DNA of 64,000 nucleotides from Vanrija pseudolonga (taxonomy: Eukaryota > Basidiomycota > Tremellomycetes > Trichosporonales > Trichosporonaceae), in contig NC_085852.1 of NCBI RefSeq assembly GCF_020906515.1, forward strand, positions 2,046,001-2,110,000, written 5' to 3'. Below, one piece after another: positions 858 to 54,976 of this stretch; positions within the stretch are counted from its first letter, which is position 1; every line of letters starts with the position of its first letter. Made by a program: the position numbers and the translations under genes. The notes under the pieces were generated by a model. It was given only the letters and a program-made list of their open reading frames with translations. It had not been told where the DNA came from and did not search any database.

Positions 858-3269
858 CTACAAAAGTGATGGGCGGCTGGCGTTGGGCGTGCCGAGCCCC
901 ATCGTGAGCCGCTTCATCTTGGGGAGGGTAAGCTGCGGTGCGCCGGTATCCTCGTCCATAGCCAGGTTGACGTGTGACGACGGCGCGAGTGATGCGGGCC
1001 GGGGCGGGGCGAGGAGCGCCGGCTCGGGCGGCGTCAACGACTCGAGCGGGTCCTCAATCGGCAGATCTAACTCTTGCGCGATCGCCACAGGGACGTGTTG
1101 TCCATGCGAGCCCTCGCTTGTTAAATCGTCCGAGGCGACTGATCTAACCTTGGTCATGACGGAGAACTTGGCGTCGTCGTCAGAGGCCAGCGAGACCTTC
1201 TTCTCCTCCGAGTGGCCGACACGCGTCTCCTCACCGCTGAGGTTGGACGATGTCGTGTCGCTGAACCGGCTACCCGAAGGGCCGGCCGGTTGCGGAGACG
1301 ACTGGGACTCAATGTCAATGACGACCGGACGCTGAGCGGCCATGCTCTTGCGCCGCTCCCGGCGTGGTCTGTACCATCTTCTATAGCCGATGAAGCACAG
1401 TAACCATGCGAGCAGGCCAGCGCCGGCGAGCGCGCCGAACGTTGCGCCGAGGGCAGTCTGAACGGTCGACTTGTTCGACTTCTTCATGCCGAGACCAGGG
1501 CCAAAGCTCGGGTTCTGGACCGTTGAGTTTTGGCGCATAGCCGCCGTGCCGTTGATGTGGACATCTAAGCCCGTGAGGTTGGCTTGTAAGGGCTGAACGA
1601 GGTTGGCAAACCCCACGGCCGGCGGGTCATAGCGGAACACAGTGTAAACGTTCTTCAAGAACGTGGCCCCGACGATCCAGTGGAACCTCGAGCTCGAGCT
1701 CACATTGAAGGCCATGATAGACCCAGTGCAGAGGTCACCTGTACGCGTGCGCACCATGTCGACCGGGTTGACAGCGTACGAGACGCCGCCAAACTGGAGC
1801 GACAGAGAGATGTTGGTCACTTGCGAGCACGGGAAGGTGTAGTAGCCCAACATTCCCGGATCCGTCACCGGCTTGGCACCGGGGATGTTGGCGTACAGCT
1901 GGGCAACCGAGGCCGAGGGTCCCTGGATGACTGACGAGCCCGTGTCGATGATGGCGGTGTTGGAACCCTCTGGGTTAAGCGTGTAGTCGTTGAGCGTGAT
2001 CTGGTCCATTGGGATGCGCCAAAAGTCGAGGGCGATGAGCGGGGTGTAGGTGATCTCGCCGGCGATGAGTTTCTCATTGACGCCGCCAAGAGTCATCAGA
2101 CCACCGGCCTGAGCCGTGCTGATAGCCTGAGAGGGAGGCGTGGTCGCCGTGTCGACAATGTCGAGCGAGCTGACGCGTCCAATGTAAAAGCCCATGCGCT
2201 TGTCCTTCCATCGTGGCGCGAGTACCTGCCAGAACGGGTACGTGTTTGACTTGGACAGCTGAGCCCAGCCCATGCCCATAATGCCAGTGATGTTCGTCAA
2301 CGAGTATGAGGTATCGTGCACGGACGCGCGGACTGGTAGATGTGGTTAGTCGCGCGTACGTGCGGTGGCTCTTGTTGGTGCCTCGAACGGTCGCCAAGCC
2401 AAGTCCTACTCACGGAACACTAGGTCCGATACCGAGTATCCAGCCATCTGCACCGTATCCGCACCCCAGTGGCCATAGCTAAATCCCGTGCCAAAGGTAA
2501 TATTGTTCGGTCCAAGATCTGGCAGGTCGGTAAACGTTGAACTGGCCTTTGAATTGAACAGCTTGTCCTTTTTGCACTCGGCACCGGTACACGAGCTGTC
2601 AAAGACATAGAAATCGGCACTGCCAGTGTCGACGTGTATTTCAAAGAACTGGGGCGGGGTGCTGGACGTTAGCCATGCCCCAAGTCACGCAGAGACCTAC
2701 CCAACAGCCACTTCCGCAGTGTAGAACACGTCGCGTCCCCAAACAGTCAACCTGGAATGTTAGCGCCACTGAGGCGCCGTTGGCGTCCTGGGCCGGGCTC
2801 ACAAATCATTTGCCTCGTCTAAGTCGGCCTCCACAGCGGCGGTCGAGGTCGATGCATTTGAATTTGATGCAGAACTGCCGCCGGCGGCGCCGCCACCGTT
2901 CTGCCTTGGCCGCAATGCCCGTCGCTCGGCAAGGGCTGCGCGCATGTCGCGATCAACGCGCTTCTGGGCGTCGTGGTCCAAGTCTGCGCGGTACTTGCTG
3001 CGCAGCCGCAAGTCGTCGTCGCGCAGCCAGGCGCGGCGAACCTCGGGGTCGTGAGAGTGCGCTCGGCGTGCGTCGTATCGCAATGCGAGTGTTGTTGGAC
3101 CAGGGCCAGCCACGGCGTTGTTGGACCGAGATTCGAGGGGTATTCTCCCCGACGCGCCATTTTCGGATCGTCGCTCCACATTGCCTCGGGCTGACGAGCT
3201 TGCGCCTGCCGTCGTAGAGAAGGCAGCCGCAAACGCCAGCACCGTTGTAAGCACAGCGGTGTGGACCAT
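858..3269 (-). CDS. pepsin-like aspartic protease, membrane-anchored
   Basis: Secreted-pathway endopeptidase of family A1. The start at 3269 opens a hydrophobic signal peptide (VLTTVLAFAAAFSTTAGA) followed by a basic propeptide. Four exons are inferred: 3269 to about 2800, a short exon near 2700-2770 carrying WGRDVFYTAEVAVG, an exon near 2413-2655 with the first catalytic motif VDTGSADFYVF, and a long last exon (about 2340-858) with the second motif AIIDTGSSVIQGP. After the protease domain comes one membrane span (FGALAGAGLLAWLLCFIGY), a basic stop-transfer stretch (RRWYRPRRERRK) and a Ser/Glu-rich cytoplasmic tail. Exon boundaries 1-3 match the paralog at 8461-10385, which shows the models are right, but the paralog has one extra intron. 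Both catalytic aspartates are present, so it should be active. Type I membrane topology is inferred from the sequence. Confidence 0.9.
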
Positions 3270-8460: not shown

Positions 8461-10385
8461 TGAAGCTTGCGACCGCCTTCGCCCTCCTGGGCCTGGCAGC
8501 GACCACATCAGCCTGGTCGTTCAACGAGCCCCGCGACAACGGCGCCTCGGCCGGCCCTGGCCACCTCGACCTGTACCGCAGCCTCGGACGCGAGGCCGAG
8601 CTCTCGAAGCGCGCCGCGGCCGGCGACGACGACGTCCAGCTCCTCGCCCTCCGTGCCTCGGTCCTCCACACGCGTAGGAAATATCTCCCCCACTTTGACG
8701 AGGAGGAGCAGGCCAAGATCGAGAGCGACATTGCCGACTTTGAGTCCAACGCCGGCGGCGACTTCTTCAAGCGCCAGTCGTCGTCGCTCGACTCGGGCAG
8801 CTCATTGTGAGTCCGGCGGGGCGCGGCGGGGGCGGAGGTGGCGGCGGAATGCAGACGGCCGGGGAGGACCAGGGCCGAGTGTGGCTCGGGAGCATGCTCG
8901 CTAGCGAGCTCCACCTCCCCCCTACCGCCGCCAACGTCAACGCCGCGCATGTCAACGCCGCGCATGCCGCGCAGTAGGCCAAGACAACGTGCTAACCCTT
9001 GGCAGGTTGACCGGCTGGGGCCGCGACATCTCGTACTCTGCCATCGTGGCCATTGGGTAAGCTGGGCGTAAGGCGGACCTGCCGCTGACGTATAGCACCC
9101 CGCCCCAGTACTTTGACGTGCACATGGACACTGGTTCGTCCGACCTGTATGTGTTCGACCAGCGCTGTGCCGCCCCCGGATGTGTCAACTCGCCTACCAA
9201 GTTCTACTCGCAGCAGTCGTCGACCTACCGCGACCCCGGACTGCAGCCCAAGAACATTACCTTTGGTATCGGCTACTCGGCCGGCCCCTTCGGCCAGGAC
9301 CGTGTCGCCATGGCCGGCTTCTATGTTGGTGACCAAATCTTCAGTGAGTGGACGCACACACAGACCATCACTCACGCCAGTGCGCGCGACGGACCACGAC
9401 GACGGATACCTCGGCACCAACACTACTGGTCTGATGGGTCTCGCGTGGAGCACGCTTTCGATCAGCAAGATCACGCCGTGGTGGCAGACACTCGCCTCGG
9501 GATGGAAGGACAAGGAGTTTGGCTTCTACCTCGCCCGTGTCAACCCTGCGTCTCTTTCCGCCGCCACAACAGACAGGTACAACCAGCCTGCGTGGATCGG
9601 TGGCCGTGTGACCTTTGGGTGAGTGGTGCAAAAAGATGCGGGGGCTGTGGCTCTTGTTGACACAACGCAGCGGCCTCGACCAGACGCTCTACCAGGGCCA
9701 GGTCAACTACGTCCCCCTCCTCGGCACGGACTACTGGCGTGTCCCCCTTGACGCGTTCACCGTCAACGGACGCCAGTTTACCGCCAGAACGACCGACAGC
9801 CAGAACTCGGCCATCATCGACACTGGCTCGACGCTCGTCATTGGCCCCCAGGCGGCCGTTGACAAGATGTACGGCGCCATCCAAGGCGCGTCCAAGATGA
9901 CGGGCCAGTACCAGGGCTACTGGCAGTACCCCTGCAACGCGCTCACGTCGATCTCGTTCACGTTCGGCGGCGTCGAGTACCCCATCTACCTCGGCGACAT
10001 GACCCGTGGCCAGCTCTCGTCGAGACAGGGCTACTGCATCGGCGCGATCATTGGCCAGCAGACGCGTACCGGCTCGCCCGTTCAGTGGATTGTCGGCGAC
10101 GTCTTCATGAAGAACGTGTACACTGCCTTCCGCGCTTCGCCTCCTTCGGTCGGCTTTGCCCAGCTCGCCAACAACCTTCTCCCCTCGAGCGGCAACAAGG
10201 GTCAGACTGCCCAGGGCCCTGCCTCCAACTCGCTCGGCACCAACGGTGTGCCCATTGGCGGCAGCGGCAGCAGCTCGGGTGGTGGCAGCGGTGGCAGCGG
10301 CTCGGGCCGCAACGCCGCTGGCCACCTCGAGGTTCCCGTCACCCTCGCGCTTGGTGCGGGCGGTGTTATCGCGGCTCTTCTCTAA
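8461..10385 (+). CDS. pepsin-like aspartic protease, GPI-like tail
   Basis: Family A1 protease, paralog of the one at 858-3269. ATG at 8461 begins a clear signal peptide (KLATAFALLGLAATTSAW). Exons: 8461 to about 8807; about 9005-9054 (WGRDISYSAIVAIG); about 9097-9343 with HMDTGSSDLYVF; about 9390-9618; and about 9671-10385 with AIIDTGSTLVIGP. Both catalytic aspartates are intact. The C-terminus is a Gly/Ser-rich linker followed by a hydrophobic end (VPVTLALGAGGVIAALL) with no cytoplasmic tail, which fits a GPI-anchor signal and a cell-wall or plasma-membrane protease of the yapsin kind. The first three splice positions are shared with the paralog, showing a common origin. The C-terminal anchoring differs between the two. 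Confidence 0.92.
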
Positions 10386-38595: not shown

Positions 38596-39064
38596 TTTTG
38601 GCGAGTATTCTTTGTTGTGCCACGATCTTCAGCAGTCAAAACATTGTAGAGTTACATGCTGGGTTATGCATGGTGTAGGACACTGGCGGGGGAGTGTAGG
38701 TGCGCATCAGCCAGGCTCGGCAGGCCGGCCGATAACGAATCGTGATGCTACCACGCCCATGGGGCCACACACGCCCCGACCTCGCAACCTCGGGCCGGCA
38801 GCACACCCGGGAAGGGCGAGAGGCGCAAGAAGAGCGGTACAACGTAGTACGCACAGCGCAGCACGCTGCCCGCGCCGCTCGGCTCACCACGATCCGACGC
38901 TGGCCGCATCGTCGCCGACGGTCGACGACGAGTGCTGCGCTAGCCGACGTGACCTCGGGCCGGCCACGCCGAGATTATCAATTCGGGCCGACCTCGCCGC
39001 GCGCAACGCGCACTGATAATGCCCCGCCCCCCCGCGTCGTCGACCACTCCACACCACCAACACA
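38596..39064. other. intergenic, promoter of the GH95 gene
   Basis: 469 bases between two plus-strand genes. It contains two GCCGGCCGA/GGCCGGCC-like palindromes (near 38725 and 38955) and repeated GGCCGGC/CGGGCCGG elements, the last close to the downstream start. No coding signal. Confidence 0.45.
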
Positions 39065-41416
39065 ATGCCGGCCCCCACCCCGCTCCCAGCCCTAACGTAT
39101 GACCGGCCCGCATCGCTGTGGGTCGAGGCGCTGCCCCTCGGCAACGGGAGCCTCGGGGCAATGGTGTACGGCGACCCGTGGGACGAGCGGATCGCGCTCA
39201 ACGAGTCGACGCTGTGGTCTGGCTCGCCTCTCAACGAATCTAACGCGGCCGCGGCGATACCCGCCAGTGTCGCCCAGCCGGCGCTGCTTGACGCGCGCGT
39301 GGCAGTGCTCGACCGCCGGTACGATGACGCGACGAAGGCGGTCGAGAAGGTACAGGGGCCGTACTCGCAGGCCTTCCTCCCGCTCGGCACACTGCGCCTG
39401 CGTACCCGTGTCGCGGGGGAGAAGGACAAGGGCACCGCGACGGGGTACACGCGCGCGCTGGACCTTGACACGGCGACGCACGTATCGCGGTACGAGCTCG
39501 ACGGGCGCCGGGTTCGCTGGACGTCGTTCGCCAGCCACCCGGATAACGCCCTCGTCGTGCGGCTCGAGTCCGAGGTGCCGCTCGACATTGACGCCAGCTT
39601 CGACAGCGAGCTCAAGGGTGTCGAGCTGGACGGAGCGTCGCCCCCCGGCCGGCTGGTAATCGGCCTCCGCGCGCCGAGCGACTGCCCGCCCCCACACGAG
39701 CCGACCGAGAGCGTCAAGTGGTCCGAGGCGCCCGGGGAGGCGATGCGCGCCGCCGCCGTGTTGGGGTGGACGCACGACGGCGAGGTTGGTGCAGCTGGCG
39801 GGCTCTCGGCGCGCGGGGTGACGCGCCTCACGCTCGTGCTCGCTGCGCAGACGACGTTCGTCGACGCGCTCACCCCGCCTGGGGTGGACGCTGCCCCCGC
39901 CGCGGCAACGGCACTCGCCCGCGTCGACGCCGCGCTCGCCGACGTCGAGGCGACCGCCGCACGCCACTTGGCAGACTACACTGCGCTCTACGCCCGCTCG
40001 GCGCTGTCGCTCCCCGGCGCGCCGCTCCACGCCACGCTGTACAACTACGGCCGGTACCTGCTCATTGCTGGCTCGCGCACCGGCGCAGCGATGAACCTCC
40101 AGGGCCTGTGGAACAAGACGGCGCGCCCGGTCTGGTCGAGCAACTACACGATCAACATCAACACGCAGATGAACTACTGGGCGGCGGAGGCCGTCGGGCT
40201 GGGCGAGCTCGCCGAGCCGCTCTTCGGGCTGATCGACGCGCTGGCAACAAAGGGCAAGACGACGGCGCAGCGCCTGTACGGCACGCGCGGCTGGGTCGCC
40301 CACCACAATACCGACGTGTGGGCGTACTCGTCCCCCGTGGGCATGGGGCACAGCTCGTGCCAGTGGGCGTGGTGGCCGTTTGCCGGGCCGTGGCTGTGCC
40401 TCGCGCTCGTCGAGCGCGTGCGTTTCGGCAACAGGGAGTTTGCGGCGCGCGCGTGGGGGCCAGTACGCGACGCGATGGCGTTTGTCCTCGACTGGGTGTT
40501 TGAGCACGACGGCGTGCTGATCACTGCGCCGAGCACGAGCCCAGAGAACACGTTCACCGTCGGCGACGACGCGACGCGGCACGCGGTGACGCGCAGCGCG
40601 ACGATGGACATCAGCCTCGCCACCGAGCTTGGGCGCGCGCTGCTCGAGATTGCCGAGGCGGCCGGGACGGCCTCGGACCCGATCGTGGCGGAGACGCGCG
40701 CGTTCGTGGCGCGTCTCCCGCGCATCTCGCCTGGCTCTGACGGGCTGCTGCCAGAGTGGGCCGAGAACCACGCGCAGGCGGAAGCGCCGCACAGGCACAT
40801 GAGCCACCTGGTCGGCGTGTATCCCGGCAACACAATCCGCGACGCCGACCAGCTCGCGGCCGCCGGGCGCGGGCTCGACGAGCGCGAGGACGACCTGGCC
40901 ACGGGGTGGGCGCTAGCGTGGAAGGTTTCCCTGCGCGCGCGCCTGCGCGATGTGCAAAAGATCGACCACACGCTGAGCTTGATCACGCGCGACGCCGCGA
41001 TGCCAGAGCACGACGACGAGGTGTACGAGGGCAGCGCGTTCACGACGCGCGGCGGGCTGTACCCCAACCTCTTCTCGACGCACCCGCCGTTCCAGATCGA
41101 CGGGAACTTGGGGTATGTGGCCGGCGTGGCCGAGTGTCTCCTCCAGAGCCAGTGGGGTGTCATTTCGCTCTTGCCGGCGCTGCCGACCGCGTGGAACGGG
41201 GGAAGGGTGAGCGGGTTGATCGCCCGCCCGGGGGTGCGCGTCGGCCTCGAGTGGGAGGGCAGGCGGCTGGTCGAGGCGAGGCTTGAGGCCGTTGGTGAGG
41301 CGGGGAGGGGACGCCATGTGCTGGAGCTTGGCGGCGTGCGCAGGGAGGTCGAGCTCGGCAAGGGCGTGCTCGTGCTCCGCGCTAAGGACTTTGAGGAGGC
41401 CTGTAGTGGCTGGTAG
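39065..41416 (+). CDS. glycoside hydrolase family 95, alpha-L-fucosidase-like
   Basis: A 783-residue single-exon gene, the full family length. The N-terminal beta-sandwich has WVEALPLGNGSLGAMVYG and ERIALNESTLWSGSP, typical of GH95; the (alpha/alpha)6 barrel follows with LYNYGRYLLIAGSRTG, NLQGLWNKTARPVWSSNYT, ININTQMNYWAAE, GWVAHHNTDVW, WAWWPFAGPW, PSTSPENTF and TMDISLATELGRA, ending with LPALPTAWNGGRVSGL. Catalytic-region residues of GH95 (Asn in NINTQMNYW and the Glu/Asp of SPEN and HHNTD) are visible. It removes alpha-1,2-L-fucose, or L-galactose in some members. No signal peptide is apparent, so it may act inside the cell on imported oligosaccharides. The lack of introns, when all larger neighbours have them, could reflect bacterial origin or intron loss; codon use is as GC-rich as its neighbours. 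Confidence 0.93.
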   Translation: MPAPTPLPALTYDRPASLWVEALPLGNGSLGAMVYGDPWDERIALNESTLWSGSPLNESNAAAAIPASVAQPALLDARVAVLDRRYDDATKAVEKVQGPYSQAFLPLGTLRLRTRVAGEKDKGTATGYTRALDLDTATHVSRYELDGRRVRWTSFASHPDNALVVRLESEVPLDIDASFDSELKGVELDGASPPGRLVIGLRAPSDCPPPHEPTESVKWSEAPGEAMRAAAVLGWTHDGEVGAAGGLSARGVTRLTLVLAAQTTFVDALTPPGVDAAPAAATALARVDAALADVEATAARHLADYTALYARSALSLPGAPLHATLYNYGRYLLIAGSRTGAAMNLQGLWNKTARPVWSSNYTININTQMNYWAAEAVGLGELAEPLFGLIDALATKGKTTAQRLYGTRGWVAHHNTDVWAYSSPVGMGHSSCQWAWWPFAGPWLCLALVERVRFGNREFAARAWGPVRDAMAFVLDWVFEHDGVLITAPSTSPENTFTVGDDATRHAVTRSATMDISLATELGRALLEIAEAAGTASDPIVAETRAFVARLPRISPGSDGLLPEWAENHAQAEAPHRHMSHLVGVYPGNTIRDADQLAAAGRGLDEREDDLATGWALAWKVSLRARLRDVQKIDHTLSLITRDAAMPEHDDEVYEGSAFTTRGGLYPNLFSTHPPFQIDGNLGYVAGVAECLLQSQWGVISLLPALPTAWNGGRVSGLIARPGVRVGLEWEGRRLVEARLEAVGEAGRGRHVLELGGVRREVELGKGVLVLRAKDFEEACSGW

Positions 41417-43970: not shown

Positions 43971-45078
43971 CTACTCGTACATCTCGTACAGCGGCTGCAC
44001 CTCCGTGCCGACAGGCGGCGAGCCCCACACGAGCGACGAGCCGCGGTGTCCGTGCCCGTGTCCTCGCGCGACGCTGTGAAAGGCGACCGGCTTGGGGTGG
44101 ATGCCGTGGCCGTGGTGGGTGACGGCGACGCTGCTCGCAGCCGCCACAAGCGCCGAACTGGACGGAACGCGGCGGTACGACGCTTCCACCGGCGAGCCAG
44201 CGACGCTGTCGTCGTCACGCCACTTGACGGCGCTCACAGCGGCCGCGCCGCGCCCGTACCGCCACTCGGTGACCTGCGCCATGAAGAGCCCGTCGAGCTC
44301 GTCGTGCGTCACGAGCGCGATCTCGTCGTCGACGCGGCGGTTGCCGCTGCTGTACGCCGCGATGTCGACCTCGTCCACCGCGTCCCCGCTCAGCTTGTGC
44401 GCGTAGCTGTACGCCGCGGCCTGCACGTCCGTAGGCGGCGGGAGGAGGTCGTCCTTGTCGATCCCGGCGTGCAGCCAGATAGCGAGGCGGCGCGCCTCGA
44501 GGGCATTGAATTTGGCATGGTATGCCGGCCAGAACTGCGCGCGAGCGAGCGAGTGTCAGCAAGCGAGCCCACTCGGCCCCCAGCCCAGCCCAGTCCACTT
44601 ACCACGACATTCACAGCCCGCTCGATCCGCTGAAACTCGGCCAAGCTAATCGCGCGCACCGCCGAATCGGCACGCTCAACCCGCTCCCAGTCCTCGCCGT
44701 CCTCATCACCCTCACCGACGACAGCGCGCGGGCTCGTCCGCGCCCAGATAACATGCTCCCACTCGAGCCGGTCGTGGTTCCACCGCGGTGTGACGACGCT
44801 CACTGCCGGCGCGTCGCCCAGCACCGTGCCCGCGAACCAGCCGCGCCCGTGGGCGTGCTGGAAGGCGAGGTAGGCAAACTCGTGGCGGTAGGGGCCGGAG
44901 AGGCCGTACGACTAGCGAGCGCGCGTCAGCGCGCGAGCGGGCGGGGAGGAGGGTTCCAGGAGTCGCGAGCACGTGTGCGACCCCCGTGGCGGGCACGAGA
45001 CGGCTTGTACAGCCCCGACACCCCACTTACCCAGCGGTTCTGGATGGGGCTCTGCACGCCGTGCACCTCTGCAGCCAT
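43971..45078 (-). CDS. PAY-array gene 1 (unknown family)
   Basis: First of nine tandem paralogs with three exons and both introns in phase 0. Exons: 45078-45031 (16 codons, MAAEVHGVQSPIQNRW), 44911-44603 (103 codons), 44534-43971. Predicted length is 306 residues, the longest member. Exon 2 carries EFAYLAFQHAHGRGWFAG and WEHVIWAR; exon 3 opens with FWPAYHAKFNALEARRLAIW. The extra length is at the C-terminus, with THDELDGLFMAQVTEW and a His-rich stretch (HHGHGIHPKPVAFHS ... RGHGHGHRGS) absent from other copies. No signal peptide or membrane span. I do not recognise the family. The 3' end is 90 bases from the convergent dipeptidase gene. Confidence 0.75.
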
Positions 45079-45454
45079 GGTGGGTGGTGGTGGGAGGGAG
45101 AAACGAGATGAGATACGGCTGTTCAAGTCAGCGGCAGCAGCAGCGGCACCAGCAGCACCAGCAGCGAGCAGCGGCTCAGGCCGCCGGGCGCGAGCGAGAG
45201 CACGAGGGATGAGGATTACGGCTGACGGCTGGGTAACGCCGGTGCCCCATCCATGCCCTCTGTCGGCGCCGAGAAACCCCCAAGCGCCGGGGGGGGGGGG
45301 TTGTGCTGGGTGCTGCCTGCTCGGTGGGGTAGGGGTGCGCAATGCCCACCGACAGGGGTGTGGCGAGCGAGCGGGGTGGGTCAGTGTGCCACCCGGGCCG
45401 TCTGGAGGCAATACTTCTATCTCTCGCTGCATCTCTCGCTCCCTCGCACTCGCA
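45079..45454. other. spacer between array genes 1 and 2
   Basis: 376 bases, GC-rich, containing a CAG/CAC-rich tract (45125-45170) and a G10 run at 45290-45300. It serves as promoter of array gene 1 and 3' flank of gene 2. No gene seen. Confidence 0.5.
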
Positions 45455-46154
45455 CTACGCGACCATTCTCCACCCTCTGCGAGCTTCCGCACGCGTCGGG
45501 GTAGCAGCCGACACGACGACGATAGGCGGCGGCGGCGGCGGGGCGTCCTCTGTCCGCGCCTCGAACCCCGCCCACTCGGCGGGGTGGACCCCCTGCCCAT
45601 GCTCCACCGCGCGCCACACGACCTCGTCGGGCGTGTGACGGACCACGCGGTGCGCGTACGCTAGCGCGCTGGCGGGGTCGGAGCCGCGCTGGAGTTTGAA
45701 GCGGTATGCGGGCCAGAACTGGTGCGCGGTCAGCTCGCCCTCGCCCCAGCAACGGCGACGCGCCACTCACGACATACTCCTCCCGCTGGGAGAGACGCGT
45801 CCACTCCGCCTGCGTGACCGCCACCACGTCGCCGTCTGCGCGTTCCAGCGCTTCCAGGGACGCGCTGAACGGTGCGCCGTCGGGCACGACGAACGCCCAC
45901 ACGCTGTGGATCCATTCCCGGCGGGTGCTGTCCCACCGCGGTGCGGCGTCGCGCAGGAGCGACGGGTGCTGCACGAAGCCTGCGAACCAGGACGAGCCGT
46001 GGACGTGCCGGTAGGCTATGAGGTGGAAGGTTGACGGGGCGGCGGTGCCGTAGGTCTGCGCGTGTGAGCGGCCGCGAGCGGTGGTGGCGGGAGGGGAGCG
46101 GCTCACCAGCCCGCTGCGGAGTGGCGCGGCGACGCCGTTGACTGTCTTGGACAT
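45455..46154 (-). CDS. PAY-array gene 2 (unknown family)
   Basis: Exons 46154-46107 (16 codons, MSKTVNGVAAPLRSGL), 46055-45771 (95 codons) and 45718-45455; 198 residues. Exon 2 has FHLIAYRHVHGSSWFAGFV and ends SQREEYV; exon 3 opens with FWPAYRFKLQRG and continues ALAYAHRVVRHTPDEVVW, then a short Pro-rich stretch (EDAPPPPPPIVVV). The tail lacks the HDECDA motif of later copies. A longer open frame spans it on the same strand, but the conserved splice pattern argues for this model. Confidence 0.75.
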
Positions 46155-46403
46155 GGTGGAGGCTGGAGGGATGTTAGGAGCACCTGGCTGGACGTTGTGA
46201 CGTTGCTCATCATGCATGTGACCGTGCATAAGGGCACCCGTGGTGGCGAGCAGCGAGCATCGTGGCCCAAGCGATGCGGCAAGGCGCAGACAGTGGGCGA
46301 TCGTGACGCCAGTCGTCACATCGTCACAGGTGTGCATCGCATCGTCGCAGCTCGCATCAGAACCACAGAACCCATACATAGCTTGTTGCTGCTTCTCTTC
46401 TCA

Positions 46404-47192
46404 CTACCTCACACTCGCGCCCCCGCCACTAGGCTGCCGCCGAAGCTTGGGATCGATGCCGAGCTGGACACAGCCCTGCACCCATCTCCGTCTCCACGCC
46501 ACGAGCTCGCTCTCGACGGCGGCGTCACACTCGTCATGGGGCTCGCTCTCGTCGCCCACGAAAGCAGCCTTGCCAGAACGTAGTGCCTCGGCCTGGTCCG
46601 GCGTGAGACTGCCAATCTGCCGCTCGGCATACGCCATCGCCACCTCGTGCAGGGTGTCCTCGAGCACTGGGGATAGCGGCAGATGCGTAATGTCCCAGCT
46701 TTGTCGGAGGCGCGGGCGGAGGTGCGCTTGTTTCCACCTGTATGCCGGCCAGAACTGTCGCCTGAGTCAGCGCCTTTCCCAGTTGGGGATACCACACGCA
46801 CCAGCTTCGCCTCGTCGACCCTCAGCCGCTCAAACTCGGCCTCGCCGATACCGCGCACCTCGGCATCACGCCGCCACTTGCCAGTACTACTGCGCCGGCG
46901 CCACCCCTCGGCGCCGACCGCGTCGAGCCCCCACACCCATTCACCGTCCTTCTTGTCCCTGTAGGATTGTTCCGCGCGCACAAGGGCCGGGAACCACAGG
47001 CTCGGGGCGCACCCGCGCTGGAAGGCGAGGTACTTTGCTGGCCGTTTGGACGCGTCGTCTGGCGCGGGTGCGTAGCGCTGGGTGTGGGTGGGTGGGTGGT
47101 CAGTGACTGGGGTTGGTTGAAGGGGGTGAGGCCGCTGTACCTACCCATCCATGGGCGTGGGGGGACGGCTCGCCGTCGGTGAATGTCGACAT
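46404..47192 (-). CDS. PAY-array gene 3 (unknown family)
   Basis: Exons 47192-47145 (16 codons, MSTFTDGEPSPHAHGW), 47077-46802 (92 codons) and 46754-46404; 224 residues. The exon 2 core is the most diverged (AKYLAFQRGCAPSLWFPALV, with WFPAL for the usual WFAGx), then EWVWGLDAV and RGIGEAEFERLRVDEAKL. Exon 3 opens with FWPAYRWKQAH and has a C-terminal HDECDAAVESELVAW followed by a basic end. Its start faces array gene 4 across a 602-base divergent spacer. Confidence 0.75.
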
Positions 47193-47794
47193 TGTGGGTG
47201 GTGGGGGCGAGTGGGCGAGAAACGGGCCGTGAGCGTGAGGGTGAGTGAGCAAAGTGCAAAGTTGATGCGAGGTGGGTGGGACGGAGGGGGGTTGGACGAC
47301 CAGGCGAGGGAGAGGCGGAGCGAGCGGGCGGGCGGGCGGGCGGGCGGGGCGGCGGCACGAGCTCGCAGCACGTCGTCGTCTCGCTCGGACACTTGATGTT
47401 GTGGTCGGACCTCTGGCCGTGACGAGTACAGCTACAGCCCGTGTCAATGAAAGGATGCAGAAGCAGCAGCAGTGATCAGAGCACCGGTCGCGCGCGCATC
47501 TCTGCGGCGGGTGGACAGTCGGGCAGGTGGCAAGAGGCCGACGACGATGGTGTGCACGGGGGCCAGCGTGCATGATGGCAGTGGCGCTGGCGGGCGACAG
47601 CAGCTACAACGTGCTTCGTATCGGGCGGACAATGCAACGACGAGCGCAGCAACAACAGCTACAGGATAAGAGAGATAGATACTCACACCTCGTGCTGCCA
47701 TTGTCACCATCTAGACTGCTGCTGCACTGCCCACTCAGAGCTCGCCACTCACACCACCTTGTGCCTCGAACCTCGCCCGCCTGCCCCGCACGCA
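47193..47794. promoter_or_regulatory. divergent promoter at the array's turning point
   Basis: 602 bases between divergent array genes 3 and 4; the only head-to-head pair in the array. It contains a GCGGGCGGGCGGGCGGGC microsatellite at about 47318-47350 and an AGCAGCAGCAG run near 47460. CACTCACACC-like motifs lie just before the plus-strand start. Confidence 0.5.
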
Positions 47795-48460
47795 ATGTCA
47801 ACAAAGTTTGAAGGCAAGCCCATCACCGGCCCCTACGCCAGAGGATGGGTACGTCGTCGGCACCTCTTGTCACATGCTATCAGCTCACCTCCACGCCCAG
47901 CGCGCAGGCGCAGCACGCTACCCGATCCGCACGTTCCACTACATTGCCTACCGCCGCCCCGAGTCGGCCGAGACATGGTTTGGCGGTGCAGTCTTCCTCC
48001 CCCTCTCGGGGTGGGACGCGCACTCGCGCACCTTTGTACGGGGGATCACCACGGTCAAGGGGGAGCGCATCACGCGGCCGGATGCCGAGGTGGCCGCGAT
48101 CGGGTGGAACCAGTACCATGATCTCAAGCTGGGCGAGGAGCGGGTTGTGGGTGACGGGGAGGACGGGGGGAGTGAGGAGCTGACGGTCAGTTCTGGCCCG
48201 CATACGACCGCAAGCTCGCCGCGCTGCAGCACCGCCGGTCCAACATCTGGACATCGGCCTCGGACGTCCCCGAGCCCACTGCCCCTGTGCCCGTGACCGA
48301 CGAGCTCAAGTCCACCGCCCTGTGGATCGCACATGCGCGCGTCAAGGTCGTCGACGATGCCAGCCCGACTGAGACGACGCCGGCGGAGGAGGACGACTTT
48401 GACAAGCATGACGAGTGCGACCACTTGTTTTGGAGCGAGGTGCAGGGCATCCCGAGCTAG
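47795..48460 (+). CDS. PAY-array gene 4 (unknown family)
   Basis: Exons 47795-47848 (18 codons, MSTKFEGKPITGPYARGW), 47901-48146 (82 codons) and 48191-48460; 189 residues. Exon 2 has TFHYIAYRRPESAETWFGG, RTFVRGITTV and DAEVAAIGWNQYHDLKLGEERV. Exon 3 opens with FWPAYDRKLAALQHRRSNIW, continues WIAHARVKVV and ends with KHDECDHLFWSEVQGIPS. The exon 2 donor is read as GTGGGT, giving a 44-base intron. Confidence 0.8.
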
Positions 48461-48541
48461 TGTGGGTAGTAGTGTGGACTGTGCATGTTGCTGGGGTGGC
48501 CAGGGTGGTACATATCACGATGAACGACCGTCACGATGTTA

Positions 48542-48575
<34 letters not shown>

Positions 48576-48878
48576 GTGGTGTCGCCACTTGTGGCGCTTG
48601 CAACCCGGCGGCGACATGCCCTTTCCCATCTCACTCAGTCACTCACACCCCCACGACTCGACCATCCACCACCTTCTCGCCCTGCGACCCATGCATCGAC
48701 GACCACGACGATTTCGAGGCGAGGCGTTGCGGGCTGAATCACCCCGTGACAGGTAACAACGCCACCTCCTTCGCACCTCGTCACGCACAGACACGAGCAA
48801 AGGGCGCGGCAAGCGACGCCGGCGCAAACAACAAAAAACCTCACAGCAGGAGCGATCATCGCCCTCCTTCAACTCATC
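48461..48878. repeat. spacer with CTG trinucleotide run
   Basis: 418 bases between array genes 4 and 5. It holds an uninterrupted (CTG)n run of about ten units at about 48543-48574, followed by GGTGGTG, a likely length-variable site. The part from 48620 to 48878 is the promoter of array gene 5. Confidence 0.7.
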
Positions 48879-49640
48879 ATGTCTCTCAACGTCCAAGGAA
48901 TCGAAAAGCCACACGCAAAGGGGTTCACGGGGTACACTGGCACTGTACGTCCAAGTACTACGGCCCGCTAATGGCACTCCGCTCGCTGACACACGCCCAG
49001 AACCTGCGCGACCTCAACCCCCTCGGCCGCATATTCACCTTTGTCGCTTTTCGCCATGTATCCTGCGCGTGGTTCGCAGGCCAGGTCGCGAGCCCCATGC
49101 CACAGTGGGACGAGTCGGGCGAGTACTTCTGGGTCGTGCGCTCGCGGCGCGCTGGCGACCTCTTGGTGCCCGATAGCAAGGTCAAGGCGATCGAGCGGGA
49201 CGAGTACCTTCGGCTAGTGGAGGCCGAGGAGTGTGTGGTGGGTGTGGTGGTGCCGTCGTGCTCTGTCACAATGGATGCTAACGAAAGCCCAGTACTGGCC
49301 CGCACACGCGTGGAAGACACAAGCGCTGCAGGCAAGGCGACAGCACCTGTGGAGACTATCCGGCCATGCTTGGCCGGACCCCCCGCCACCGCTTCCCCTA
49401 GCAACCCAGGCGGTCGCGCACGACTTTGCGCTCGGCGTCTCGGAGCTCGCAAGGACAGAACACTGGCAGGGGCTTCCCGCCCACGTCGCCGATCTGCGCG
49501 CGCACACCGAGGGCGACGGCGAGTTTGTGGCCGAGGTCCGCGCCGCCTTTCCAGTCAAGTACTGGGCGAGCAAGCCCGCGCCAGTGTATACCCGGAGCAC
49601 TGCCAGCGCCGGCACCAGCCGCCGTGTGGGCGTAGCGTGA
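48879..49640 (+). CDS. PAY-array gene 5 (unknown family)
   Basis: Exons 48879-48944 (22 codons if the donor GTACGT is used; N-terminus MSLNVQGIEKPHAKGFTGYT), 49001-49237 (79 codons) and 49293-49640; 216 residues. Exon 2 has FTFVAFRHVSCAWFAGQV and EYFWVVRSRRAG and ends VEAEECV. Exon 3 opens YWPAHAWKTQALQARRQHLW, the only copy with His in place of the last Tyr of PAY, and ends with GDGEFVAEVRAAF, a diverged form of the ECDAxFxxEV motif. A CTAAC branch site precedes the second acceptor. Confidence 0.75.
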
Positions 49641-50233
49641 GATGAGTGGGGGGCGCGTGGGCGTGGGAACGAGGCAGGCGCGTTGGTTGTATGCAGCTGG
49701 TCGTGGTTCTGACGCTCTGTCGACACTGACGTCGAGTCCGATCTGCAACGGCGGCGGCACAAATACTCCGGCAGAGAAACGCCACGACGCTCCGTGCCAA
49801 GCCGGACGGACGCGACCGGGGCGACTCGGGCCGACACGCTCTGTGGCGCAGCGGCGGGGTACGATGAGGGCCAAGGCCAACTGAGCTGCTACAGGGCTGC
49901 GAGGACATGCATGGTCGCATGCATCTGGTCGTGTGCCGTGCCGGCCGGCCGGCTACGAGCGCCCGCCGCGGCGTCGGCCTGGAATCAGTGGCGCACCGCT
50001 CGGCGCCTCGGCAACTTGCTTGGCCTCAGCTCCAGCTTGGCCTCAAATAACAGCAGCACACTCACACTTCTGCCCACGGACCGACAGCATATTGCTTCTC
50101 GCCTCACCTCGTGCACACTGAGCAACCCACGAGGAGCGCGCCGACCAATAATACCGTGTGACTTCGCCCCGGCGGCAGACTACTTGAGCGGAGCAGGCCA
50201 GCGCTGCGCCACAGCAGCACACCAGCAAACACC
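49641..50233. other. spacer between array genes 5 and 6
   Basis: 593 bases with no supported gene; the longest tandem-orientation gap in the array, large enough to have held another copy. I see no remnant PAY motif in either orientation, though a diverged fragment cannot be excluded by eye. Confidence 0.5.
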
Positions 50234-50957
50234 ATGTCGACATATCTCAACCGGCCGACACACCAGCCATACGCTGCGGGTCTGGTGAGTGGGGCATGGG
50301 CATGGGCATGGGCTAGCAACCCAGGCAGCATGTACGGAAGCTGACGAAAGCCCAGCGCCCGGACCCGGACAGGTTCAACCGCAACGCGCTGCAGTACGTC
50401 GCGTACCGCCTGCCTGGCGAGTCTACGTGGTTCGCTGCGCGCGTAGAGCCCACATTCAGCGGATACGACCGTGGCGCGCGCGACTATGTGTGGAGCGGTG
50501 TCAGTCCGCGCGGCGAGGTACGCAACGTGCGCGATAGTGAGGCGGCGGGCATCTCGGGGGCCGAGTATGAGCGGCTGGTCGGCGTTGAGATTGGCGTTGT
50601 GAGTGCCGCCAGAGGGATTACGGCTGATGACAGTTCTGGCCGGCATACAAGCGCAAGCTCGCGTCCCTCCAGTCCCGCCGGCGCGACATCTGGGGCCAAC
50701 GCGCGGAATGGACCGACCCGCCGCCACGCGAGGAGATGACGGCCGCCGCGCTGGCGTTCGCCCACTCGCGTGTAAGGGTAGGCGAGGGGCTGCCGCCCCG
50801 GTACCCGCCGGACCGGGTGAGCAAGCACGACGAGTGCGACGCGCTCTTCTGGCGCGAGGTGTGGGCCTTGACGGGGCGATATCGCCATGGGAGCTGGGCT
50901 TCGGGGGCTGGCATGGAGGACATTGTGGGCACGACGGCGGGGAAGAGCACGTTGTGA
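50234..50957 (+). CDS. PAY-array gene 6 (unknown family)
   Basis: Exons 50234-50284 (17 codons, MSTYLNRPTHQPYAAGL), 50356-50598 (81 codons) and 50634-50957; 205 residues. Exon 2 has LQYVAYRLPGESTWFAARV and DYVWSGVSPRGE. Exon 3 opens FWPAYKRKLASLQSRRRDIW, then WTDPPPREEMTAAALAFAHS, RVRVGEGLPPR and the motif KHDECDALFWREVW. The second intron is very short at 35 bases (50599-50633). Confidence 0.8.
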
Positions 50958-51144
50958 TGGTGTATGTAGTGTATGTAGATGTGAGAGGAGGCAGGCTTGT
51001 TCGATACACCCGGCCCGGAAAGCTGGTGGCACCTGCGTCGCATCGACCACCGGCGTCCATATACGGGGTGGTTCGCTTGGAGCCCTGCGGGGAAGAACAA
51101 ATACACTACAGCGAGCGCACGTCTCGCACGACACATTCGCCACC

Positions 51145-51682
51145 ATGTCGCTGCACGTAAACGGGCAGGACGCGCCTTTCCGCAATCATTGGGTGGGTGG
51201 CGACGGCCGCTGTCCGCACCGCTGACACCCCCAGACAGTCGGCGCAGGCTCGGTCCATACCCACCACTTCCAGTACCTCGCCTACCGCCGCCTGGACGGA
51301 GCCACATGGTTCGGCGCCGAGGTGGACGACTTCGAGTCGCACTATGACCGCAAGGGCGTGTGGGTGTGGAGTTTCATGACTGTTCGCGGCCGGCAAGAGG
51401 AGCGGAGGGACACCGAGGTCAAGGCTGTTAGTTATGACGAGTATCGGCGGCTGTGGCGCGACGAGGAGGATGTGGTGGGTGGCGATGGGGGGAGGCGACT
51501 GTTGACGCCAGTACTGGCCGGCATACGACAAGGAACTCGCCAAGCTCAAGGCTGCGCCGGCGCACCGCTTCGACCCCGCGGCCTTGCTCAAGACGCTCGC
51601 GCACCATGCCGCGCATAAACACGTCCGCGCCGTCGAGGGCGACTCGCATGCCTTGCAGAAGCGGAGCGACGCGCTGTGGTAG
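51145..51682 (+). CDS. PAY-array gene 7 (unknown family, shortest)
   Basis: Exons 51145-51192 (16 codons, MSLHVNGQDAPFRNHW), 51235-51474 (80 codons) and 51512-51682 (56 residues); 152 residues in all. Exon 2 has HFQYLAYRRLDGATWFGAEV and VWVWSFMTVRG. Exon 3 opens YWPAYDKELAKLK, but the middle part found in genes 4, 6, 8 and 9 is missing and the end (GDSHALQKRSDALW) is only loosely like the HDECDALFW motif. It may be a shortened but expressed copy. 188 bases separate it from gene 6. Confidence 0.75.
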
Positions 51683-51961
51683 TGACGTCGTGTATGTAGG
51701 GTGTTGTCACCTGTGCCATTTAGCTTGATACAGCTGCTGCTGTTGTTGCCGCCGAATGCCAGGAGCTGAGAAAGCCTTAGTCTTGCTCGCCGGCTTGCTC
51801 GGAGGAGGGCTGGTGGACGTGTGGCGGTCCGCGCGCGGTGGCGGGCGCCACATGCCACGAGATCCTGTCGGCCGTGTCGACCTTGCCGTTTGTTTGTCCT
51901 GACAAACAAAAGTCAGCTCTCTTTCCTCCTCTACGACGACATACTCACGACCCACCTAACC

Positions 51962-52682
51962 ATGACGACCAACCTGGGCCAGTATCCCATCTTCAGTCCT
52001 CACCGAAACGGCTATGTGCGTCGTCGTGTCGCTCCGCCTGCTGCGTCCGCTAACGACGCCAGCGCCTAGGCCACGACAACCTCCCCGTCCGCTCGCTCCA
52101 GTTCCTCGCGTACAAGTGGGGGCCGTACTCTACCTGGCTGGCAGGCATGGCCATCGGTGACGAGTCGTACTTTGACCCCCGGCAGCGCATGTTCATGTGG
52201 CGCATAGCGACCTGCGTGAGCGGTGCACGGATTACGCGGGCCGACGGGGACGTGGTGGCCATTCCAAGGGGGGTGTTTGAGCGTATGGCGCGGGTCGAGA
52301 AGGATGTGGTGGGCTTGCAGTCTTGGCAAACTTGGCCAGGAAGGCAAGGCAAGGCTAACTCACGCTCCAGTACATGCCTGCATACAAGTTCAAGCTCGAG
52401 GCGCTGGCCGAGCGCCGGCGCAGTATATGCGGGTACGCTGCGTGGGCGACCCCGCCGCCAACAGAAGAGATGCGCCAGGTGGCCCACGCGTTCGCCAACA
52501 TGCGCGTGCGGCAGGTCGAAGGTCTGAGCTCGCACGGGCCAGAGCATGTGGGCCGGGCGGCGGCGCTCGCGCCCAGCTCGGGCACGCACGACGACTGCGA
52601 TGCGAGTTTCGTGGCCGAGGCGGAGCGACTGCAGGCCGACCGGGCGATCGCGGAGGAGGCGGAGGAGGAGGAGGAGGAGTGA
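51962..52682 (+). CDS. PAY-array gene 8 (unknown family)
   Basis: Exons 51962-52015 (18 codons, MTTNLGQYPIFSPHRNGY), 52063-52308 (82 codons) and 52371-52682; 203 residues. Exon 2 has LQFLAYKWGPYSTWLAGM, FMWRIATCVSG and DGDVVAIPRGVFERM. Exon 3 opens YMPAYKFKLEALAERRRSI, so Trp of the motif is Met here, then WATPPPTEEMRQVAHAFANM, RVRQVEGLS and HDDCDASFVAEAERL, ending in a run of glutamates. It is closest to gene 9, suggesting a recent duplication. Confidence 0.8.
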
Positions 52683-52868
52683 ATGGGCGAGGAGAAGGGG
52701 ATATGTAGACAGTTTAGAAGCCCCGCCCGCCCGTGCATGTCACGCTCGCTGGTCACCAGGGAGAAGAGAGTGGCACGAGCGTGGCGGCACCCGCCCCAAA
52801 GGTCGAGCTCAGCGTCCCTCCCTCATCAGATTTATCATCTCCTACTCATTCCTCTCCAACTTGCCCGC

Positions 52869-53683
52869 ATGTCGACGCGTCTGGGGTCATCTGCGCTCTT
52901 CGCCCCGCACTCGTGCGATGTGGTACGCCCACGACCCCCAGCCAACACCACGTACATAGCTGACCTCGCGCAGCACCCCGGCGCAGACAGGCTCAAAAAG
53001 CGCACATTCCAGTACCTCGCCTACCGCCATGTGCCGACCACGACGTGGCTCGCGGGCGTCGTCGTCCCCAACGCGTCCTTCTGGTCCACTGAAAGCGGGC
53101 GCTGGATGTGGTGCATTGCCGACGCCGTCGCCGGGTCGCGGGTCATGAAGCCCGATGACGAGGTGGCTGCTATCCCGGGGGATGTGTTTCGGCGCATGCA
53201 AGCGGGGGAGCGGAACGTGGTGGGTGGGGTGGGGCGTGGGGTGTGGCGATCTCCATATCCCAGCTTTCACACCATGCTCGCGAGCTGACGCCCGCTCGCT
53301 CCCAGTACCGCCCAGCATACAAGTTCAAGCTCTCAGAACTCACCAAGCGCAGGCAAGAGATCTGGGCCTGGAAGCTGCGGTGGAACGACCCGCCGCCAAC
53401 AGCCGAGATGCGGCGCGTAGCGCACGAGTTTGCGAATACAAGGGTACGCGTGAGCGAGCGCTTGCCGGCGCACGAGGCCGTGCTTGCAGGGGGCAAGATC
53501 GTCGTCCCCCCCTCCGCGCCGAGCCTGCACGAGCACCGTGAGTGCGATGCGAGCTTCGTTGCGGAGGTACGTCGCAGCTCGTCGGCGTCGGAGAGGCTCA
53601 GTACGCCCCAGCGCGCGTTACGCGCCAACGCGGAATACGCGCGCCGGAGGAGCGAGAGCGCCGAGCCGTACTCTACGCGGTGA
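52869..53683 (+). CDS. PAY-array gene 9 (unknown family)
   Basis: Exons 52869-52922 (18 codons, MSTRLGSSALFAPHSCDV), 52974-53219 (82 codons) and 53306-53683; 225 residues. Exon 2 has TFQYLAYRHVPTTTWLAGVV, GRWMWCIADAVAG and DDEVAAIPGDVFRRM. Exon 3 opens YRPAYKFKLSELTKRRQEIW, then WNDPPPTAEMRRVAHEFAN, RVRVSERLP and HRECDASFVAEVRR, with a basic Arg/Ser-rich tail. Last member of the array; its 3' end converges on the deacetylase gene with about 105 bases between. Confidence 0.8.
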
Positions 53684-53789: not shown

Positions 53790-54976
53790 CTACAGCACGC
53801 CCTTGGGCATCAGCGCGCCCGGGGCAGGCTTATGGCGCGCCCTAAAGTCGGCCTCGATCTCCTTGAACGTTACCCATTCGACCCCGTCATGGGTGTTGAT
53901 CCAGCGGATGAAGCGGTCGATCATCTGGAGGACGTCTGGGGGCGGCGTTAGCACGTACTGTAGCTGACCACCTGTGCCCTGCTGAGCCACTCACGCGGGC
54001 GCCCGCTAACGTCTGGGTGGATCGTGATCGGCATGATGAACCCCTCCTCGCGCTCATTCTCATACAGGTACTCGAACCAGTCTTTCCACTTCTGCTCAAT
54101 CACGTGCGCGTCGACGAACCCATGTGAGTTGGCGGCCGTCTTCATAAAGAGCATGGGCGGGAGGTCGTCCAGGTCCCAGTTGACTGGGATTTCGACGAGG
54201 CCAGTGTCCTCCCCGCGCTTGACGGGTTCCATCCAGCTGGCCGCCGGCTGCTCGTAGTCGATCTTCTTCCAGCTGTCGTTGATGCGCACGAAGTATGCCT
54301 GCGAGTCGCGGTGCTGGAGCGAGTGGTCTGCGGCGTGAGCGCCCTTGCTTGACGCCAGACGCGGCACGCACCATACCGGATCCCCTTGTCAAGCAGCAAC
54401 TTGGTCCCCTCCGCACTCGCCTCCCACCACGGCGCAACGCTGCCCTCCGGCGCCTTGCCCGTAAACGCGACCATCTGGTCCCAAGTGCGGTTGAGGATGT
54501 CGCGCTGCTGCTCGATGGTGAGCGACGTGGGGTTTTCGTGCGAGTAGCCGTGCAGGCCGCTGCGGGTGTCAGCGCCCCTCCCCCACCCTCCGTCCGTCGC
54601 CCCCGCTTCCCCCGCTCACATCTCGTGCCCCGCGTCGCGGACCGCCGCAAGCTGCTCGGGGAACGTGTCGAGGCTGTGCCCGGGGATGAACCACGACGTC
54701 TTGATCCCGTGCTTGGTGAACAGCTTGAGCAGGCGTGGCACGCCGACCTCGCCGGCGAACAGGCCCTGGGTGTAAGCGAGCCGTGAGCAGCGGTGGGGGA
54801 CATACCCGCGAGATGTCGGCCGGCGAGTCCTCGCCGCCGTACGAGCCCAGCCTGGGGTCAGCGGGGCCAGCACCTACAGGGCAACTCACCAGCCGGCGAC
54901 TGCGTCGACGTCGACGCCGAATCTGGCGTCAACGGGGGGTTATCTCGGTGACTTACGCTACGAGGATACGGCCCAT
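53790..54976 (-). CDS. polysaccharide deacetylase-family (NodB fold) enzyme
   Basis: Small first exons splice to give [20 protein letters not shown] then [19 protein letters not shown], the usual start of fungal members of the cyclic imidase/peptidoglycan-deacetylase-like branch. Metal-binding motifs are the Asp in FGVDVDAV and H-x3-H in [13 protein letters not shown]. Further on are [37 protein letters not shown] and [10 protein letters not shown] joined to [13 protein letters not shown], with the family-specific HPDxSGRP. Stop at 53790. No signal peptide is seen, so it is probably cytosolic and might open cyclic imides or amides and not act on chitin; that is inference from the subfamily. 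Six or seven exons, apparently whole. Confidence 0.88.

Follow-up and report, generated by a model that had tools for sequence, protein, structure and literature searches.

A tandem array of nine diverged paralogs with a predicted Tudor-like core in the yeast Vanrija pseudolonga

The analysis of a 64,000-nucleotide stretch of the Vanrija pseudolonga genome (contig C4:2046001-2110000, hereafter the window, within a 24.9 Mb genome of nine contigs) reveals a tandem array of nine related genes, g1 to g9, in a genus of basidiomycetes from the order Trichosporonales. Rebuilt from the sequence, the array occupies exactly positions 43971-53683 of the window and consists of two blocks arranged back to back, of which g1-g3 occupy the minus and g4-g9 the plus strand (Table 1). 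Each gene has a first exon of 48-66 nt (16-22 codons), a second exon of 237-309 nt, and a third exon that opens with FWPAY or YWPAY or with the variants YWPAH (g5), YMPAY (g8), and YRPAY (g9). All 18 introns are of the GT..AG type and span 35-119 nt, and both are in phase 0 in all nine genes, the second donor of g1-g3 having been selected on position and phase where more than one GT was available. The relatedness of the copies was further strengthened by leave-one-out profiles, in which eight genes were used to find the ninth and every gene was recovered with an E-value between 1e-24 and 4e-50 (on a basis of 10,000 sequences). The original prediction had described nine adjacent three-exon genes at this place, with short first exons, phase 0 introns, and a third exon starting at (F/Y)WPAY or its variants, and this observation proved real and accurate.

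The gene models agree with several features of the sequence. Retention of an intron destroys the reading frame in 16 of the 18 cases, a CTNAN branch-point match occurs in 17 of 18 (a short word, counted without a chance control), and the G+C content of the exons is 77-88% at the third codon position against 42-56% at the second, a pattern typical of genes. In all three V. pseudolonga cases where a database protein was retrieved, the spliced model was identical to it (g1, which equals LOC62_04G006055 letter for letter; g4, which equals LOC62_04G006058 letter for letter; and a further copy at C4:2111 kb), and five V. albida database proteins cross 10 of 10 junction positions without a gap in a protein-level comparison of database models. 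A simple hydropathy scan of the array proteins gave no sign of a signal peptide or a membrane span, as had been proposed. An HDECDAxFxxEV-like ending had been assigned to six copies; the motif itself was confirmed, while its number and place were revised, since an HDECD-like motif is present in seven of the nine genes (g1, as HDELD, g3, g4, g5, g6, g8, and g9) and lies near the C-terminus rather than at the protein end. It was not found in g2, g7, or any of the three copies outside the array.

The family exceeds the array, with no fewer than 12 copies across the genome. Further copies were sought by genome searches with eight different copies as queries, in which the counts are lower bounds, and a profile search also covered the window and 28.9 kb from two other C4 stretches. 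Three additional genes were found, all on C4, of which one is dispersed on its own and two form a tandem pair (Table 1). In the first gene of this pair, exons 1 and 2 read as a single open frame, and intron 1 may for this reason be lost or optional there. ARAGORN reported a tRNA-like gene with an unclear anticodon about 220 bases upstream of the pair (L056:8169-8261). Weak genome matches at four places on C1 and C2 (E above 0.01) were set aside, with the two inspected (L037 and L046) appearing unrelated by eye.

Comparison with a second species points to an old array. Counterparts of g1, g3, g4, g7, and g9 were recovered from V. albida at 85-90% identity, and the copy at C4:2111 kb has a counterpart at 74% identity whose locus tag (005951) stands apart from the array tags. 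The mean identity among the nine paralogs is 30.5% (6,407 aligned residue pairs). At identical residues with four-fold degenerate codons, the third base agrees between paralogs in 339 of 820 cases (0.413), against 0.36 from codon usage alone; silent sites are thus near saturation, with residues retained. In the family tree, every one of the six proteins from V. albida groups with its own V. pseudolonga counterpart (support 90/88 to 100/100); g8 joins g9 (100/98) and g1 joins g2 (93/90). The deeper forks are weak: 6 of the 15 inner branches have strong support, and the program issued a long-branch warning. Because the array orthologs pair one to one and the paralogs are so strongly diverged, with silent sites near saturation, the duplications behind the retrieved orthologs predate the split of V. 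pseudolonga and V. albida. The copies have been kept apart, which fits diversification and not dosage. A recent amplification of the array was rejected on the paralog divergence and the one-to-one pairing, and the suggestion that a local expansion reflects selection for dosage is not supported.

The comparison of copy number between related species, which had been set as a check, yielded the five array orthologs together with one possible absence. The spacing of the V. albida locus tags leaves free numbers for g2, g5, and g6 and none for g8 between 005984 and 005985. Since the g8-g9 split precedes the species split, these tag numbers suggest that g8 was lost in V. albida or missed in its annotation. 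Relatives were also found among Logan contigs, where P0005 (against g4), P0006 and P0007 (both against g1), and P0013 (against g3) are 88-98% identical over the aligned part and P0014 is 77.5% identical to g9 over the aligned part. The relatives of g3, g4, and g9 are listed on contigs of 18,419 bases each, and owing to these equal sizes they probably sit on one contig; a g1 relative lies on a contig of 13,904 bases.

Protein searches of 5.8 billion sequences, each scoring 8,000 candidates, returned matches only from V. pseudolonga, V. albida, and Logan contigs. The search words were taken from the first 500 alignment residues, according to our reading of the tool description, and the searches are incomplete, since g2, g5, g6, and g8 were returned from no species. 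Within this reach, the family has so far been seen only in Vanrija. A prokaryotic origin (P0009 against prokaryotic genome contigs, 20 pattern matches) and a viral origin (P0012 against viral contigs, three pattern matches) were considered and set aside, with none of the matches confirmed in scans that reach close relatives only. Profile searches of the spliced proteins placed the family in no known sequence family: no Pfam or NCBIfam model was matched by more than one member, and PDB sequence profile searches gave either no match or a single chain at E 1.3. The weak matches, each on one member only, were taken as chance (MRP-S34, E 0.0025; Integrase_DNA, E 0.0078; two NCBIfam models, E 0.061 and 0.11; and the PDB chain). 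Literature searches on Vanrija genomes, on lineage-specific or tandem orphan genes, and on fungal Tudor-like expansions retrieved no paper on the family, and the passages of PMC12820176 consulted do not mention it. The statement that the genes match no known family therefore stands for sequence families (Pfam, NCBIfam, and PDB) and gives way at the level of fold, where a Tudor-like barrel is predicted.

Tudor-like barrels are compact modules by which other proteins grip their partners, and structure prediction suggests such a Tudor-like (SH3-like) barrel for the family core. Two different paralogs were modelled (P0009, whose final 15 residues are of low confidence, and P0012, the V. albida ortholog of g9), and both models point to the same predicted fold, a small antiparallel barrel with five strands and a length of about 60 residues that corresponds to Tudor at the fold level. 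Their structural matches were almost exclusively Tudor-type domains, and in the second match list only Tudor-type folds occur among the 50 entries shown. After the barrel, the only elements in both models are helices of at least four residues, strands as long as three residues being absent, and in P0012 the helices number three. Among known systems, the Polycomb-like Tudor of PHF1/PHF19 aligns with the model over almost its full length (55 of 56 residues of 6wau_C aligned, root-mean-square deviation 1.9). Extended Tudor proteins join the barrel to a second, nuclease-like beta domain; Drosophila Papi (5ygc) and Krimper eTud2 (7cfd) are 7-18% identical to the family over the aligned part, and the predicted remainder of the family is helical in both models, unlike the extended Tudor arrangement. 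The PWWP domain, a barrel followed by a helical bundle with a PWWP-type motif, has a similar outline of barrel plus helices; no PWWP entry appears among the structural matches shown, which excludes nothing, and no PWWP match was found in Pfam.

Despite this predicted fold, the core fails the sequence tests for Tudor membership. Neither PF00567 nor any other Tudor family was assigned by the Pfam and PDB profile searches, and no Tudor model of Pfam appeared up to E 10 among 19 and 14 reported rows, a negative limited by HMMER filters that discard most matches above 0.1. A search with PF06003 gave no match in any control genome and carries no weight. Over the genome, PF00567 has a sole match at C7:1190483-1190860 (E 6.3e-26), and the array is unmatched. 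The C7 domain carries Tudor-SN-like residues by eye and has a W-(Y/F)-x-A-x-V pattern in strand 2 in common with the family, also by eye. An hhalign comparison of the two gave a probability of 0.1% and no profile similarity, which weighs against a Tudor relation by descent.

The candidate binding site was examined in a register (P0009 numbering) set by eye from the strand order and from A-x-W and W-Y-x-A-x-V, two patterns that known Tudor domains show. All positions given below could be off by about one residue. In the part of PMC13068663 consulted, the Tudor domain is described as a barrel of five strands with a preference for lysine or arginine in methylated form. According to the portion of PMC7492083 consulted, PHF1 holds methyl-lysine by Trp41, Tyr47, Phe65, and Phe71, and alanine at Trp41, Tyr47, or Phe65 leaves no detectable binding. 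The matching family positions are mostly non-aromatic: W41 of PHF1 corresponds to R34 (R in eight, Q in three, and K in one of the 12 copies), Y47 to F42 (F in 10, L in two), F65 to residue 63 (F in three of 12), and F71 to residues ~69-71 (aromatic in none of 12), so that none of the copies reaches three aromatics across these positions. Other aromatics are strongly kept, namely at position 33 (12/12), W41 (12/12), position 59 (12/12), and W61 (11/12), and these may form the core or a different site. In g4 of V. pseudolonga, position 61 is R, against W in 11 of the 12 paralogs; its V. albida ortholog P0004 and its Logan relative P0005 have W.

Taking fold, layout, and age together, we tentatively favor, at somewhat less than even confidence, an array of nine old paralogs with separate functions, small proteins that would be soluble and intracellular and would act as barrel-plus-helix adaptors, each with its own ligand. 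Exon 2, with a part from exon 1, would encode the small Tudor-like barrel, and the end of exon 2 together with exon 3 would encode a long helix and then a second one, with a third helix probable in the copies that carry the HDECD-like motif, at which it would start. The barrel may hold a peptide, a protein surface, or a nucleic acid, and the helices may join the barrel either with a second partner or with a further copy. We infer this adaptor role from the small soluble proteins, the binding-type barrel, the helical tail, and the near-C-terminal motif in most array copies; the ligand, which would differ between copies, is unlikely to be a methylated tail of the canonical kind, because the usual methyl-lysine or methyl-arginine cage is seemingly not kept. 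No shared promoter word was found upstream of the array genes (among 300 controls, 63, 66, and 58 did as well as the best 6-, 7-, and 8-mer, respectively), and co-regulation is thus not supported.

Several other explanations were weighed against this adaptor interpretation. The core may be a generic SH3-like barrel reached independently and used in nucleic acid binding or structural assemblies, so that "Tudor-like" would denote a small barrel only. We regard such an origin as rather unlikely given that the two paralog models rank Tudor-type domains almost exclusively, with no other fold among the 50 entries shown. Quite improbable, in our estimate, is that the proteins act as genuine readers of methyl-lysine or methyl-arginine, recognizing histone or arginine-methyl marks by a cage built from the non-classical aromatics Y33, W59, and W61: many of the top structural matches are methyl readers by their titles, and the conservation of these three positions would suit such a cage, but the positions of the PHF1 cage are mostly non-aromatic within the uncertainty of the register.

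The idea put forward originally, a fast-evolving recognition, antagonism, or stress set amplified for dosage or diversity, likewise appears distinctly improbable. The tandem layout, the possible difference in g8 between species, and the lower identity of the C4:2111 kb copy relative to the array genes are in its favor, but the five array orthologs are well conserved and pair one to one, the paralogs are too diverged for dosage, and the simple scan showed neither secretion signal nor membrane span. A bolder extension of the adaptor interpretation, which we consider unlikely as a whole, is that Vanrija has a dozen or more standalone Tudor-like adaptors of its own, each with a remodelled site and a helical tail, forming a genus-specific reader system for ligands other than the classical methyl marks, with most of the copies retained in a stable array that predates the species split.

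Families without known relatives usually stay "unknown", and the fold prediction from two paralogs makes this one testable. It offers a test case of a predicted binding barrel that seemingly lacks the classical cage and has multiplied into distinct proteins forming an old and stable set, known so far from one yeast genus within the reach of the searches. Binding of marks or of small-RNA-pathway proteins by the barrels would make this expansion of such modules an unusual one for a yeast.

Table 1. Genes of the array, copies elsewhere on C4, and other features of the window (window positions unless a contig is named).
Feature	Position	Strand	Exons	Protein	V. albida ortholog	Remark
g1	43971..45078	-	45031-45078, 44603-44911, 43971-44534	306 aa	Q8F55_005978	
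g2	45455..46154	-	46107-46154, 45771-46055, 45455-45718	198 aa		
g3	46404..47192	-	47145-47192, 46802-47077, 46404-46754	224 aa	Q8F55_005980	
g4	47795..48460	+	47795-47848, 47901-48146, 48191-48460	189 aa	Q8F55_005981	
g5	48879..49640	+	48879-48944, 49001-49237, 49293-49640	216 aa		
g6	50234..50957	+	50234-50284, 50356-50598, 50634-50957	205 aa		
g7	51145..51682	+	51145-51192, 51235-51474, 51512-51682	152 aa	Q8F55_005984	
g8	51962..52682	+	51962-52015, 52063-52308, 52371-52682	203 aa		nearest paralog g9
g9	52869..53683	+	52869-52922, 52974-53219, 53306-53683	225 aa	Q8F55_005985 (P0012)	
Dispersed family copy LOC62_04G006068	C4:2110857-2111549	-				~11 kb beyond g9
Dispersed tandem pair of the family	C4, about 3080.5-3082.1 kb	+				within L006 (C4:3079152-3082361)
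GH95 glycoside hydrolase	39020-41413			798 aa		left of array; single open frame
Aspartyl protease gene piece (PF00026)	861-2345	-				
Aspartyl protease gene piece (PF00026)	9612-10382	+				

The neighbors of the array provide no functional link, and the window holds no tRNA and no RNA family at gathering score. To the left, beside the glycoside hydrolase, lies a gene that resembles an M20-type hydrolase by eye; the piece tried matched nothing in Pfam. To the right, there is a polysaccharide-deacetylase-like gene, whose Pfam match (54616-54873, E 1.8e-4) falls slightly short of the curated cut-off, together with an alpha/beta hydrolase and a beta-lactamase-fold protein.

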